Below, piece by piece: positions 57,506 through 63,350 of a stretch of 64,000 nucleotides of DNA. The stretch spans positions 49,097 through 113,096 of IMG/VR virus record IMGVR_UViG_3300014501_000001; one strand, 5' to 3'. Each line of letters opens with the position of its first letter. Positions within the stretch are counted from its first letter, which is position 1. This DNA comes from a virus. Position numbers and translations under genes: made by a program. The notes under the pieces were generated by a model. The model saw only the letters and a list, made by a program, of their open reading frames with translations, was not told the origin of the DNA and searched no databases.

Positions 57506-58112
57506 CAGCCCTCCCCTTGTCCTCGGGCTCGCTGAGCAACTCGGCAAGGCGCGTCAGTGCTTCGCGTGGCATCCACTTGCGCAGCGCCTTATTGACACGC
57601 TCGGGTGTTGTGATCTGAACTCGCGGCGGCTTCCAGCCCTTGGTTCGGGATGCGGCGTAGGCGGACACTTCGCCGCGGACCACCTTGTCGGCCAACTCGG
57701 GGTCACTCTTCTTGAGCCGCCGCACCGTGCGCTCGGCCGTCTCCGACTGGGGAGGTTTCAAAAGCGTGGTACGCTTTTGAAACTCAAGAGAGCGACGATC
57801 GCCCCCCTTCTCGGCTGCGGCAGGGTCCTCCTCAAAGAGCAGTTTTCGAGCAAGCGACTCAACGTCTGCGAGCCTGGCAGCGTCAAGCAGCTTGCTGGTG
57901 GTCATCCCCAGGCCAACCGGTTCGGGTGCCTCTATGAAGGCTCTGAAACTCGGGAAGCCCTCCGCTATCCAGGCGCGCTCTTGAAACGTCTTGCGCAGCA
58001 GAAGCGCGAACGACTTCGGATTCGCGCCATCGGTGTGCGCGGCAACCCTCAGCCTGTTCAGGAGCAGCCGGGTATCGGCAAGTTCCATTGCTTCCCGCCG
58101 CACGGCGGTCAC
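57495..58112 (-). CDS. ParB-like DNA-binding protein
   Basis: A 205-residue protein, GTG overlapping the helicase stop. The centre DPAAAEKGGDRRSLEFQKRTTLLKPPQSETAERTVRRLKKSDPELADKVVRGEVSAYAAS has the helix-turn-helix form found in ParB-related and plasmid replication-control proteins. Contains a short AT-richer stretch with TTTTGAAACTC near 57780. Role in replication or partition inferred. Confidence 0.6.
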   Translation of the reverse strand: MTAVRREAMELADTRLLLNRLRVAAHTDGANPKSFALLLRKTFQERAWIAEGFPSFRAFIEAPEPVGLGMTTSKLLDAARLADVESLARKLLFEEDPAAAEKGGDRRSLEFQKRTTLLKPPQSETAERTVRRLKKSDPELADKVVRGEVSAYAASRTKGWKPPRVQITTPERVNKALRKWMPREALTRLAELLSEPEDKGRADAP

Positions 58113-60217
58113 TGCCAGCCCTCTTCGTTGAGGCGGGCGAGATGGGACCGGACGTGCGCTACGTACTTTTCAGCGTCTTCCGAGGTGGTGATTTCCGCAG
58201 TCGAGTCAACGCTGAACGCGAGGTTGATCTCATGTGTCAGCCGCTGCCGAGTCCGCCTGTAACGGGAGTCCTTGGGATCCCATCCGTGCTGGCGCAGGAA
58301 TCCGCCGATAATCTTTGAGGCTTCGCCCTTGACCTGGGCGGTCGCCTGCTTGTCTGTCATCGAAGGCCCAGGGCTCATGCTCGGGCGGTCCCGGCCTGCG
58401 GGCGGCGCACCCGAGGTCTCCGAGGACGGGCGCATGCCCTTGGCCTCCCAGTAAGCGCGGAAGTCGGCCGGCGTCACCAGTGGCCCGAACTCGTCTAGGT
58501 CCGCCTCCCACAGCGCGTATTCGTCGGCGCCGATATCCTCGTCATTCGTAGCGCCGCGAACATCTGTCGCCCAGGCGTCTTCCATCTCGGCAGCGGTCCC
58601 GTCTGGTGCTTCCCCGCCATCGCCATCACGCTGGCTAAGACCCCTGGCCTGCTCGTTCCGCAGGTAGACGATGAAGCGTTGCATCGCCTGGTCATCGGGC
58701 ACGATCAGGTGCAGGCACTGCTTGTTGAACGGGCCGCCTTCCTTCCACACCCGGCCGCCGCGGAAGACGAGCTGAGTAAGGTGGCCGAGATCCCTGTAGT
58801 TGGTCAGGACGCCAACGACCGTGATCTCAGGGCAGTCGTAGCCAATGAATGCCATCCGGACTGATACGAGGATGTCGTACGGATTGCTCTTGAAATCTTC
58901 AAGCGCGGTTAGCGCTGCACCCCCATCCACCGAGACGGCCTTGGCTATCTTAAGTTCCGGGTACTTACGGGAGAGATAGTCAACGACCTGGCGCACATCG
59001 CTTATGCCGATGCACGCGATGAGCGCGCGATGTTCCTTCTTGACGCGCTTGGCAGCGCGGAGTCGTCTGACGGTGAGGTCGCACAGCGGCTTCCAGACGG
59101 CCGGGTCGCGCAGGACCGAAGCCAGCGCGGCCCGCTCACCGGGTGGCTGAGAGCTGGCCATGCTGAGGTCGTACTCGACGCCGCTCTTGAGCCGTATGCC
59201 AGCATCAAGGATTGCCGCATCGAACTGCCGGAGGTATCCGAACGTGATGCCGTCGCTGTAACTGGCGGTGACATCCGGCTGAAGATGGAGCCGGTCGCGC
59301 GGGCCAGCCTTGTAGCGGTCGTCGCACAATACGAGCTGGCGCCCGTCGGAGCGCTCGGCTGTTCCCGTGAGCAGCAAGACGTGAGCGGCGTGCTCGGCTA
59401 TCTGCTCAATGAACTTGCCCGCAGCGGGAGCGCCCGCGTCCTCTTCGTCGTCCTGAGCGCCGCAGTACTGCGCCTCATCGGCGATCAGCAGGAACTCCCC
59501 CGCGTGCTGTCTCGCCCATCGCAGGTGGAGCTGGCCGCCATCCTGCGCCGTCCTCGTGAAGTCGCTCACGCCAGACTGGTAAGTGGAAACAAGCCCGATG
59601 CGAGTTTCGCCGGGCGGTAGTAGCGGCTCCTGGTTTGGCCGGTGATAAAGCCACTCAAGACGGCATGCCGTGTCAAAGAGCCTGAAGCTGCCAAGCTCGG
59701 CCGCCTTGCCCGTCGATGGATCCGTGACCTTGCGGCCTTTGTCATCGCGCAGGTAGGTGCGGTATGTCATCTCGGCCTGCCGCGCGAGGGTGACGCGGGG
59801 CACGTAGATCAGCACGTACTTGACGCCCGGCAGAGTCCTCGACTCAAGGCGCATGAGCGCCGTGGCAACTGCCTGGTAGCCGATGGTCTTGCCAGAGCCG
59901 CACCAGACCAGCCCGACAGTCACCTTCTCGCGAGCCGTGTAGCGGTTGACTACGGCCTTGATCAGCTCACCCTGGAACGGGCGCACGTCGGGGTCAAAGC
60001 CGTCCTGATATTCCATCGACATTCCCTTTCTCAGATTGCATGCCGGACACAAGGGGCGCCCGTTATCCCTCTCTGTCTGACCACCGCGCACCCATGGCAC
60101 GAAGTGGTCGGCGTGCCAGCCGTCGCCTAGCTGCACTCCGCACTCCGCGCAGCGCCCGTGCCACGCGGCGTACATCGCGTTCTTCTCGCGTCGGCTGAAC
60201 CGGCGCCGTTCGGTCAC
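58109..60217 (-). CDS. HNH nuclease fused to SF2 helicase
   Basis: A 702-residue protein. Residues 15-65 are an HNH domain: CAEC (Cys23, Cys26), HADHFVPWVRGG (His38), RDNGRPLCPAC (Asn52, Cys57, Cys60). From about 75 on is an SF2 helicase: FQGELI (Q-motif-like), GSGKT at 107-111 (Walker A), LIADEAQ (247-250, DEAQ box), LLTGTAE (motif III), VRMAFIGYDCPEITVVGV and LTQLVFRGGRVW (motif VI-like). The C-terminal 150 residues are charged. Likely the phage DNA helicase for replication or recombination; the HNH fusion could also make it a restriction-like nuclease. Followed by ParB-like and initiator genes. Confidence 0.78.
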   Translation of the reverse strand: MTERRRFSRREKNAMYAAWHGRCAECGVQLGDGWHADHFVPWVRGGQTERDNGRPLCPACNLRKGMSMEYQDGFDPDVRPFQGELIKAVVNRYTAREKVTVGLVWCGSGKTIGYQAVATALMRLESRTLPGVKYVLIYVPRVTLARQAEMTYRTYLRDDKGRKVTDPSTGKAAELGSFRLFDTACRLEWLYHRPNQEPLLPPGETRIGLVSTYQSGVSDFTRTAQDGGQLHLRWARQHAGEFLLIADEAQYCGAQDDEEDAGAPAAGKFIEQIAEHAAHVLLLTGTAERSDGRQLVLCDDRYKAGPRDRLHLQPDVTASYSDGITFGYLRQFDAAILDAGIRLKSGVEYDLSMASSQPPGERAALASVLRDPAVWKPLCDLTVRRLRAAKRVKKEHRALIACIGISDVRQVVDYLSRKYPELKIAKAVSVDGGAALTALEDFKSNPYDILVSVRMAFIGYDCPEITVVGVLTNYRDLGHLTQLVFRGGRVWKEGGPFNKQCLHLIVPDDQAMQRFIVYLRNEQARGLSQRDGDGGEAPDGTAAEMEDAWATDVRGATNDEDIGADEYALWEADLDEFGPLVTPADFRAYWEAKGMRPSSETSGAPPAGRDRPSMSPGPSMTDKQATAQVKGEASKIIGGFLRQHGWDPKDSRYRRTRQRLTHEINLAFSVDSTAEITTSEDAEKYVAHVRSHLARLNEEGWQ

Positions 60218-60635: not shown

Positions 60636-61004
60636 TCACCGTTCAAACCGCCGCGCCGCGCTCTTTGCCCTCGGTGCCTCTTCCCTCAGCCCCAGCATCT
60701 CCAGCAGTTCCCGCATGACCCCCAGGTCGCCCTTGTGCGCCCGCTTACGGCACCGCAGTCCCGTGCACCCGTGACGGCGCACCATCCCGTAGTCCGCTAC
60801 CCACCGGGATGCACCGAGGGCTATGGCGGCTTCCTGGCGCTCAGCCTCGGCCTTCTGCGCCGGCGTCCGGGCAGGCATCTGCGGGATATGCAGAACCGAG
60901 TCGTCGTTCCCGAAGCTGCTGATGACGACGGGTGGCCTGCCTGCTGACACGGCCTGCGCGATGTGCATGTCGCCTACATGCTCCGAGGCTCCCCGGCGGC
61001 TCAC
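60636..61004 (-). CDS. Hypothetical protein
   Basis: A 122-residue protein: QKAEAERQEAAIALGASRWVADYGMVRRHGCTGLRCRKRAHKGDLGVMRELLEML. His/Cys cluster HGCTGLRCRKRAH. Overlaps the RusA-like gene by 4 nt. Function unknown. Confidence 0.5.
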   Translation of the reverse strand: MSRRGASEHVGDMHIAQAVSAGRPPVVISSFGNDDSVLHIPQMPARTPAQKAEAERQEAAIALGASRWVADYGMVRRHGCTGLRCRKRAHKGDLGVMRELLEMLGLREEAPRAKSAARRFER

Positions 61005-61405
61005 GGCGGATCACCCGGTACCTCGGTTATGGTCACTCGCAGCAATCCGCGGGGATGCGTCTCGTCGGCCAGCCGGTAAGTGACCTGCCGGACGCACCGC
61101 TTCGTGTCCGTGGGGAACACCCCGCATTTCACGAGGCCATCGACCAGCGCCTTTCCGGTCGGCGCCATATTGTCGGCGTCGGTGATCACGCCCGACGCGA
61201 AGGGGTGCCGGTCCCGCTTCAATCGCGGCGGCGAGAGGTATTCCACGGTGACATCGGAGCGGCCGAGTGGCGGAATCCCTCGCGCAATGGCTGCGACCTT
61301 TGCCTTGATGTCCTGCGTGAGGTCGTTCCGGGCGTACCTGTTGAGCCGGTTGTTAGCGGAGATCAGCGCAGTCCCCGGCGGCATCTCCAGCGTGAATGTC
61401 CTCAT
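61001..61405 (-). CDS. RusA-like Holliday junction resolvase
   Basis: A 134-residue protein from ATG 61405 (GGAGAAGGG upstream). NNRLNRYARNDLTQDIKAKVAAI, VTVEYLSPPRLKRDRHPFASGVITDADNMAPTGKALVDGLVKCGVFPTDTKR matches the RusA fold, with the D-x-D-N...K-x-x-x-D (DADN...KALVDGL) catalytic region conserved. It resolves branched DNA before packaging. Confidence 0.78.
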   Translation of the reverse strand: MRTFTLEMPPGTALISANNRLNRYARNDLTQDIKAKVAAIARGIPPLGRSDVTVEYLSPPRLKRDRHPFASGVITDADNMAPTGKALVDGLVKCGVFPTDTKRCVRQVTYRLADETHPRGLLRVTITEVPGDPP

Positions 61406-61452
61406 CCCTTCTCCGGGGGACATCTGCCCGGGTGCCCGGGGGGAGGGGGAAG

Positions 61453-62370
61453 TCACGCGCTTACCGTTTCGGCAGCGGCAGCGGGAAACTCGCGGATGCG
61501 CAGGTCGGCCGGCCATGCGTCCCAGTCGCCACCGTGAGAACCGGCACCAAGGGGAATGCCCGTCACGGCCCCGAGCTGCTTAACGAACGGCGTGATGCCT
61601 GCCTCGCGGCTCTGCCTCACAAGCGTGCGCGCCCAGTCGATTTCCATTGGCCTCGCGCCGGGGCCGGACTCGCCACCGATGATCAGCCAGTCGGGCCGGA
61701 TCAGGTCCGGGCACGGGCTGGAGCAGAATCCGCCGGGGAAGTCGTGAGTAGGGCAGTGCCCGTGCCCTCGGTGCAGCCTGATCGGCCCTATCAGCGGCTC
61801 AGCTGAGACGAACCGGATAGCGGCTGGCGTCTGATTCAGCGCCGGGATGCGGATGTCTGCCCAGTGCTGATCCTCGGCGCTGACCCCCAGCCAGACATTG
61901 CGGAGCGGCCATGCGTAACCCCTGATGGCAGGAATGTCAGATGGCAGGCAGCAGTAGGCACGGTTCACACGGCCAGCGAAGTCTTTGCTGTTCAGCAGCG
62001 ACCGCATGCGCGCGTGGCGTTTTGTCAGCACCTGGAATGTGTGCTGCTGAGCGGCAGCCATCACCGCAAACACATCGGCAATGAAGTCCTCGGGAATGTC
62101 CTTGTGGAACAGATCCGACATGCTGTTGACGAAGATTCGGCGTGGCCGCTTCCAGCGCAGCGGCTGGTCAAGCGCATCCGGGTGGACTGCCACGCCGAAG
62201 CCGGGACCGCTGGTAAACGGGTGGCCATCAGTTTGGTACTTTGCCGATCCCATGCTCTTTAGCCGCTTGGCCAGCGTTATCGCGTAGCAGTTATCGCAGC
62301 CCGGCGAAACGCGGTCACAGCCCGTTGTGGGATTCCATGTCTCGTTAGTCCATTGTATTCCAGTGCCCAT
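61453..62370 (-). CDS. DUF5131 (phage Gp37/Gp68) family protein
   Basis: A 305-residue protein from ATG 62370. TGIQWTNETWNPTTGCDRVSPGCDNCYA carries the three conserved Cys (18, 25, 28) of this family, followed by VFVNSMSDLFH-type (RRIFVNSMSDLFHKDIP), FQVLTKRHARM, WLGVSAEDQ, FVSAEPLIGPI and WLIIGGESGPGARPM, all family landmarks. The fold is thought to be radical-SAM-like with a metal site; the reaction is unknown. Its first codons are more AT-rich than the rest, and an HNH gene lies immediately upstream next to a second copy of its N-terminus. Confidence 0.85.
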   Translation of the reverse strand: MGTGIQWTNETWNPTTGCDRVSPGCDNCYAITLAKRLKSMGSAKYQTDGHPFTSGPGFGVAVHPDALDQPLRWKRPRRIFVNSMSDLFHKDIPEDFIADVFAVMAAAQQHTFQVLTKRHARMRSLLNSKDFAGRVNRAYCCLPSDIPAIRGYAWPLRNVWLGVSAEDQHWADIRIPALNQTPAAIRFVSAEPLIGPIRLHRGHGHCPTHDFPGGFCSSPCPDLIRPDWLIIGGESGPGARPMEIDWARTLVRQSREAGITPFVKQLGAVTGIPLGAGSHGGDWDAWPADLRIREFPAAAAETVSA

Positions 62371-63056
62371 TACGCGACCGCCTGAAATTCCGTGAGCGCC
62401 AGGACATCCATGAGGTTTGCATTAGGAACGCGATTGGTGCGCTCTAGCCACTCAAAGACATCCGAGTCGTTCTTGCTTGAGTTGCACGAATGGCAGGCAG
62501 GAACAATATTGCCCGGCGCGGTGCGGCCTCCACGGGAGACGGGCATGACGTGATCCCATGTCGTGGCCGGGGAAGGGCAGTAGGCACAAGCACCCTCGAA
62601 CTGCTCGGTCAGGTATTCCATCCCGAGCGAATCCATCGGCTCTACGCCCCGCTTGCGTGCGTGGACACGGCTGCGGATAGCTACCGGGTTGGCCGCATAC
62701 TGTGCCCGATATTCCGCCGCGATGTGTTCGCGGCAAGCACCCTGTTCAAACGGAACCTGTTCCGATGGCAACCACGCCCGGCATCCGCGACACCACGATC
62801 GTCCTTGCGCTTTCTGTGCGCGGCGCTCTGCGGTTCCGGGCCGGGAGGGATTCTTGCGTCTCGCCGCGAGCGAGCGGCGGCACGAACTGGCGCGCCCGCT
62901 AACCCTTGATGAGTCCTTGCCGAAGTCTTCGGCATCGTGCCAGTCTTGGCACCGCCAGCAGTACAGCAGGCCCCTGTTGAGGCGGTCGATGTACTCATTG
63001 ACGCCAAGTCCGGTCCGGGTTGCAGCAGCCTTAATGCCGCCGTCACGGCTACCCAC
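62370..63056 (-). CDS. HNH endonuclease inserted in DUF5131 5' region
   Basis: A 228-residue protein from GTG 63056 to TAA overlapping the next ATG. Two Cys pairs (LLYCWRCQDWHDAEDF; SWCRGCRAWLPSEQ) precede a canonical HNH at about 170-220: CAYCPSPATTWDHVMPVSRGGRTAPGNIVPACHSCNSSKNDSD. It is flanked by two versions of the DUF5131 N-terminus, the upstream one truncated, indicating insertion into that gene. Confidence 0.85.
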   Translation of the reverse strand: MGSRDGGIKAAATRTGLGVNEYIDRLNRGLLYCWRCQDWHDAEDFGKDSSRVSGRASSCRRSLAARRKNPSRPGTAERRAQKAQGRSWCRGCRAWLPSEQVPFEQGACREHIAAEYRAQYAANPVAIRSRVHARKRGVEPMDSLGMEYLTEQFEGACAYCPSPATTWDHVMPVSRGGRTAPGNIVPACHSCNSSKNDSDVFEWLERTNRVPNANLMDVLALTEFQAVA

Positions 63057-63105
63057 GACGCCACCAGGTGGCCTCAGTCCACTGGATTCCGGTCTTGTCG
63101 GCCAT
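63049..63105 (-). pseudogene. Truncated 5' copy of DUF5131 gene
   Basis: ATG 63105 opens MADKTGIQWTEATW, which continues as WRRG and stops. Residues 4-14 match the start of the intact DUF5131 gene (TGIQWTNETW), and both copies are preceded by GCGTAATGG. This is the displaced original 5' end left by the HNH insertion. Confidence 0.75.
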
Positions 63106-63350
63106 TACGCTGCCTCTCTCCCCGTCGCTGCCATTGCTTCCGCGTCCGCTGTCCGTACCTCGTGAGGCGCTGATGCCATCAGTCCCGTAATAGCCCGGCA
63201 CCCTTCGCCTTCACGCGCCCCGCAAGGTGTTCTCCCGGACTCATCCCGGCAGCGGACGGTGCGGGCTGTAGCGTCGGCCTCAGCGAGCAGCAGGAGGCGG
63301 TACGTGGCTGCCCAGTCGGCGCGGGTCTGGGCTAGCAAGCCCGCGCTCAC
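63105..63350 (-). CDS. Small zinc-site hypothetical protein
   Basis: An 81-residue protein from GTG 63350. TVRCRDESGRTPCGAREGEGCRAITGLMASAPHEVR resembles the C...C...C-R...PH pattern of small actinophage proteins. Its stop overlaps the ATG of the truncated DUF5131 copy as TAATG. Function unknown. Confidence 0.55.
   Translation of the reverse strand: MSAGLLAQTRADWAATYRLLLLAEADATARTVRCRDESGRTPCGAREGEGCRAITGLMASAPHEVRTADAEAMAATGREAA

Follow-up and report, generated by a model that had tools for sequence, protein, structure and literature searches.

HNH nuclease genes that take over the start of DUF5131 genes in phages and plasmids and supply a substitute start

Introduction

Endonuclease ORFs of fungal mitochondria can bring a foreign C-terminus for the gene that they enter, the native end being kept as a remnant, as in Allomyces atp6 and Glomus atp6, atp9, cox2 and nad3 (PMC3630166). 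Free-standing HNH nucleases of the T4 type, such as MobE, overlap their neighbours (UAAUGA in mobE); nucleases of this type are intergenic, hundreds of bases from the cut, or split a gene in two, as in Aeh1 nrdA (PMC2988022). Replacement starts are not described in the searched part of a survey of phage homing nucleases (PMC10448857). Our literature search, which most subscription papers lay outside, returned no mention of DUF5131 and no precedent in phages or plasmids, so that one could have been missed.

Here we analyze a locus in a 64,000-nt stretch of a virus record (IMG/VR IMGVR_UViG_3300014501_000001), referred to below as the window. In the window a nuclease gene has entered a DUF5131 gene near its start, captured that start and supplied a substitute that leaves the gene complete; ten or more further phages and plasmids show an independent insertion of this kind at the same spot. 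The fungal mORFs (PMC3630166) have in common with this locus that a free-standing endonuclease ORF enters a gene and supplies a divergent version of the coding part that it displaces, the native part being left behind as a remnant closer to relatives. The arrangement is nevertheless the mirror image of the fungal one: in DUF5131 the exchange affects the 5' end together with its start codon, and the old start passes to the nuclease, whereas in the fungi it is the C-terminal end that is exchanged. Moreover, the nuclease is of the HNH type and not LAGLIDADG or GIY-YIG, the setting is phages and bacterial plasmids instead of mitochondria, and, unlike in the fungal cases, one site in one target gene has been hit repeatedly across distant lineages. 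Given its N-terminal end and HNH nuclease, the DUF5131 element works like the fungal kind but is not a member of it. With MobE (PMC2988022) it shares an HNH gene that overlaps its neighbours, presence or absence at one place and a conserved target; unlike MobE and the Aeh1 nrdA case, the insert lies at the putative cut site and comes with a replacement start that makes the gene whole.

Results

Organization of the locus in the window

All features of the locus lie on the minus strand. An 81-aa ORF (63105..63350), whose match to Phage_zn_bind_8 is weak and under the cut-off, ends in a stop that overlaps, within TAATG (63107-63103), the start of a truncated DUF5131 5' end. This remnant of the original start runs from ATG to TGG (63064..63105, MADKTGIQWTEATW), resembles the corresponding MADKTGISWTDATW of the closest relative, L006, and reads on through WRRG to a stop, giving the 18-codon ORF MADKTGIQWTEATWWRRG (63049..63105; MADKTGIQWTEATW followed by WRRG). 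The stop is overlapped by the GTG start (63056) of the HNH nuclease gene (62370..63056, 228 aa; Pfam HNH 36.6 bits, cut-off 21.4), and this start is kept among relatives, where the protein begins MGSxxGxIKxAAxRxG (alignment A1). The nuclease contains zinc-ribbon-like CxxC pairs and a C-terminal HNH domain at residues 157-197. Its own stop overlaps, in another TAATG (62372-62368), the start of a full-length DUF5131 gene (phage Gp37/Gp68 family; 61453..62370, 305 aa; PF07505, 277.6 bits), the only copy in the 113-kb virus record. The complete gene starts differently from the remnant, with MGTGIQWTNETW (62335..62370, a low match to L006) leading into NPTTGC, and this replacement restores the gene. 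GCGTAATGG is found at both flanks, at the junction of the 81-aa ORF with the remnant and at that of the HNH gene with DUF5131. Judged from the empty site in L006, the inserted segment would comprise the nuclease ORF and the replacement start, 729 nt in all (62335..63063), and would span from the remnant Trp to the Asn-Pro of the body.

The initial annotation had read the locus as an HNH gene wedged into a DUF5131 gene with TAATG on both sides of the nuclease, and the truncated start upstream, the complete gene downstream and the two overlaps given above bear this out. It had also described the upstream copy as GC-rich and truncated and the downstream copy as more AT-rich and intact, in agreement with G+C contents of 61.9% for the remnant (42 nt) versus 47.2% for the replacement (36 nt), stretches that are too short for codon-usage statistics.

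The gene after DUF5131 (61001-61516, minus strand) looks like a RusA-type resolvase by eye and has no Pfam match. On the same strand, a 702-aa ORF (58109-60217) appears, also by eye, to join an N-terminal CxxC/HNH-like stretch to helicase-like motifs, an unusual-looking fusion.

Two empty sites

The DUF5131 protein of L006 is 84% identical to that of the window, with 83% DNA identity over the gene body. The L006 gene is uninterrupted; it reads MADKTGISWTDATWNPTTGCDRV... and joins MADKTGISWTDATW directly to NPTTGC, as had been predicted for a nuclease-free relative, and no relative of the nuclease was found in the L006 record. The blastn identity between the two starts exactly at ACATGGAA, the Thr-Trp-Asn codons. 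The window remnant agrees with the L006 start at 32/42 nt. In the downstream gene, the first 30 nt, which belong to the replacement, agree with L006 at 18/30, and the next ten 30-nt blocks at 23-29/30. The simplest reading of this greater similarity to L006 is that the remnant represents the original start and that the downstream start was acquired. Upstream of its start the L006 sequence is unlike the window, and the left side was judged by the remnant alone. In the rest of the window gene, identity to L006 is similarly low only in blocks 13-16 (15-21/30 nt), so that codons about 121-160 form a second divergent stretch inside an otherwise well-conserved DUF5131.

This comparison supports the proposal of the initial annotation that the nuclease brought a replacement start for the gene that it invaded. 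The claim that the 5' end of the target was duplicated holds as far as two starts are present; the downstream one is no copy of the recipient's own 5' end but a different allele, which fits material carried in with the nuclease. An exact search of viral contigs for TGIQWTNETW returned no donor of this start. The short 18-codon ORF occurring without an HNH gene, which would have spoken against the proposal, was sought in 88 nuclease-free loci and was absent.

A second empty site comes from plasmids. The S. canus plasmid L015 carries the only full-length plasmid relative of the window nuclease (42% identity), directly upstream of DUF5131, and the Streptomyces HUAS 15-9 plasmid L018 has an L015-like neighbourhood without the nuclease. 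The left flank (90% identity) and the right flank (82%) meet at CCGTGGCTGAC, a part of which, TGGCTGAC, occurs twice in L015. A short start-like remnant, MADGATIE, is kept in L015; it is the weakest of the 11 remnants described below and rests mainly on this empty-site partner. The window with L006 and L015 with L018 thus form two present/absent polymorphisms at homologous sites, as is typical of HNH homing endonucleases.

Recurrence upstream of DUF5131

Counting duplicates once, we found 18 independent carrier loci, in phage contigs and in Streptomyces and Alicyclobacillus plasmids; all of the full-length nuclease relatives identified sit directly upstream of DUF5131. A scan of viral sequences by nuclease alone gave nine relatives (9/9 upstream of DUF5131), and a query of plasmids with the second nuclease type described below (type B) gave four (4/4). 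A viral scan by DUF5131 added L038 and L045, the nuclease being beside only 2 of the 80 viral DUF5131 genes found in this way, and a motif scan added L123 and L129. These last two were found again, and L133 was added, by a scan with the nuclease type of the window (type A); all three are independent full-length relatives upstream of DUF5131, and matches to the HNH domain alone lie elsewhere, away from DUF5131. Searches with the window nuclease alone returned no close relatives, patterns from the two-row alignment A1 no useful ones, and a search of 398 genomes of the phylum of a Mesorhizobium genome, run without a positive control, none at all. Weak type-B relatives (27%) are present beside tRNA-Pro in the Mycobacterium phages LilhomieP and Skinny (H152, H153), a possible case outside DUF5131.

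A DUF5131 5' remnant, usually in frame with the nuclease, is clear or supported in 11/18 carriers (the window, L015, L021, L023, L024, L028, L029, L038, L045, L123 and L133); seven have no clear remnant, that of L129 being doubtful. The nuclease ORF of the Alicyclobacillus locus opens with VVDKSKIGWTD, in which a DUF5131 start is joined in frame to the nuclease. Eight of the 11 remnants break within 6 nt at the Thr-Trp codons (ACN-TGG): after ACN in L024, L123, L038 and L133, within TGG in L029 and L045, and after TGG in the window and L023. A second, upstream DUF5131 start was found in 10 of the 17 nuclease loci scanned versus 3 loose motif hits among 88 loci without nuclease, which we judged to be chance matches inside other genes; the double start is not due to chance. 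A foreign coding end beside the endonuclease ORF, with the native end as remnant, is therefore seen here as in the fungal mORFs.

Two nuclease types at one site

Type A (the window, L015, L123, L129 and L133) has a canonical HNH domain, which exceeds the Pfam HNH cut-off in the window and L015. Type B belongs to no Pfam family and has a conserved core, PCxDC...RHEYDHxxGY...VCxxCH. Its structure, predicted from an alignment of the viral loci only (A7), has a mean pLDDT of 87.9 and a top match to Hpy99I that is weak (probability 0.82, E 0.013); matches to PHROG endonuclease VII families are also weak. Its paired CxxC motifs and HEYDH...CxxCH core are like those of the beta-beta-alpha-metal nucleases Hpy99I and endonuclease VII, although type B is a sequence family of its own and the match, from a predicted structure, is weak. 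Both types therefore show an HNH/beta-beta-alpha-metal domain, in type B by motif, the weak fold match and weak PHROG matches only. The nucleases of the window and L015 share with type B the N-terminal MGSxxGxIKxAAxRxG part and the first zinc-ribbon-like motif, and this common N-terminal part suggests an exchange of nuclease domains on a shared targeting part. An RNA-guided nuclease of the IscB or Cas9d kind was considered and discarded, the match reaching 33 bits against cut-offs of 175 and 375 and covering the HNH domain only.

Distribution on the DUF5131 tree

On a quick tree of DUF5131 bodies, which has several long branches, the carriers are scattered without clustering: the 17 carriers tested need 17 changes, at least nine of which are forced by well-supported branches. 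The nucleases of L021 and L030 are 81% alike (over 68 residues) and their DUF5131 proteins only 41%. This scatter and the disagreement between nuclease and target identities point to horizontal spread independent of the descent of the target gene; the nuclease seems to move independently of its host gene, yet always to the same place.

Substitute starts and coupling

The stop of the nuclease gene and the start of DUF5131 overlap by 1-20 nt in 17/18 carriers and are 2 nt apart in the remaining one, which makes coupled translation of DUF5131 likely. The starts of carriers are depleted in Ala-Thr-Trp (ATW), which occurs in 1/15 of them versus 56/87 others (p = 2.8e-5); pairs independent on the tree differ in the same direction, not significantly (median p 0.125). 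In 8/8 informative loci the residue before Thr/Val/Ser-Trp differs between the replacement and the locus's own remnant (P = 4.5e-4 for random alleles, in a paired test devised after seeing the data), a difference near the Trp that would be consistent with loss of the cut site. Contrary to a strict prediction, not every carrier-type WATD start is accompanied by a nuclease: only 5 of the 18 viral DUF5131 genes with such a start carry one upstream, and such starts are therefore not exclusive to the element. Because of the WATD-type starts without a nuclease and the post hoc nature of the paired test, we can speak of resistance to cutting only as probable. The 13 viral WATD-start genes without nuclease (L114, L117-L122, L124-L128 and L130) possibly represent resistant alleles or relics left after nuclease loss.

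Discussion

We consider it likely that these loci were formed by a homing HNH nuclease whose target is the conserved 5' end of DUF5131 and which brings along a divergent version of this end. The insertion, the remnant, the replacement allele, the recurrence at one site, the overlaps and the scattered distribution are all visible in the sequences; from these we infer the cleavage, the repair route and the resistance of the following mechanism. The element would consist of a free-standing HNH homing endonuclease gene to which a short substitute for the 5' end of its target gene is attached. The nuclease would recognize the conserved coding stretch around [I/V]xWT[D/E]AT-W-NP and make its cut in or close to the Thr-Trp codons; repair that draws on a donor copy would then insert the nuclease ORF followed by the divergent DUF5131 5' end, joined in frame to the NP...GC body of the recipient. 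The old 5' end, left upstream, would provide the nuclease with a start codon and a ribosome site and would often extend its N-terminus in frame, and DUF5131 would be translated from the substitute start overlapping the nuclease stop codon. As the substitute differs from the original at the codons beside the break, the rebuilt gene should escape further cutting, and the replacement thus probably protects DUF5131 from the nuclease. On a broader reading we are evenly divided: the loci may represent a natural home-and-rescue drive of phages and plasmids, in which nucleases dedicated to one block of codons in one conserved gene bring a form of that block that resists cutting and spread as they replace the gene's start again and again; the nuclease domains would evolve together with the resistant starts.

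The window taken alone would also be explained by shuffling of modules without homing, in which an HNH-DUF5131 pair already joined in another phage recombined at a fortuitous short homology with the start of a resident DUF5131 gene, whose old 5' end stayed behind. Six carriers without a DUF5131 remnant do look like a plain gene pair, and L015 and L018 are less alike over the whole DUF5131 gene than over the left flank (82% vs 90%), so that the pair could have arrived together. However, eight loci are broken at the same codons, carriers of the nuclease are dispersed over the DUF5131 tree, and the window gene has a body that is not foreign, since it diverges from L006 only in its first 30 nt and in one internal stretch; we regard such shuffling as unlikely. 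A functional partnership, in which the zinc-ribbon HNH protein and DUF5131 act together, perhaps as parts of a single defence or modification system, and the nuclease gene stays adjacent because of it, could account for an adjacency that is strict in 18/18 loci and for the stop/start overlap in 17. Such a partner would hardly be expected to accompany only 2 of 80 viral DUF5131 genes in the search by DUF5131 or to be absent from the close relatives L006 and L018, and both the remnants, which mark an insertion, and the occupation of the same place by two different nuclease domains make this explanation improbable.

Two further possibilities concern the origin of the double start. If the nuclease had entered after the gene had duplicated its own 5' end in tandem, two copies of that end would be left, as are present, but these are different alleles in each locus compared, and in the window it is the remnant that has the higher similarity to L006, which leaves a duplication very improbable. 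That the HNH gene is borne by an intron, whose splicing would join remnant and body in the RNA, is hardly credible: although remnant and body would fit together like exons, the one ending with Trp and the other continuing from Asn-Pro, ten loci gave no Rfam intron match, the 729-nt insert (63063-62335) is almost without non-coding sequence, and a proper DUF5131 start is encoded just ahead of the body. A group I or II intron with a homing endonuclease was also rejected as a class for the element, as no self-splicing RNA core was found in the ten loci.

If the homing interpretation is true, a selfish nuclease that uses neither intron nor intein can persist inside a conserved coding sequence at a low cost, by repairing the gene that it broke and removing its own target in one step. 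This is the logic of an engineered rescue gene drive, which here would be natural, repeated and easily tested. It would also explain the short start-fragment ORFs upstream of DUF5131 genes, which otherwise look meaningless in annotations.

In the nuclease-free locus L125, the sequence about 150 nt upstream of the DUF5131 start reads MAKPSLADATGIWNPV... and may be a relic of an older DUF5131 start.
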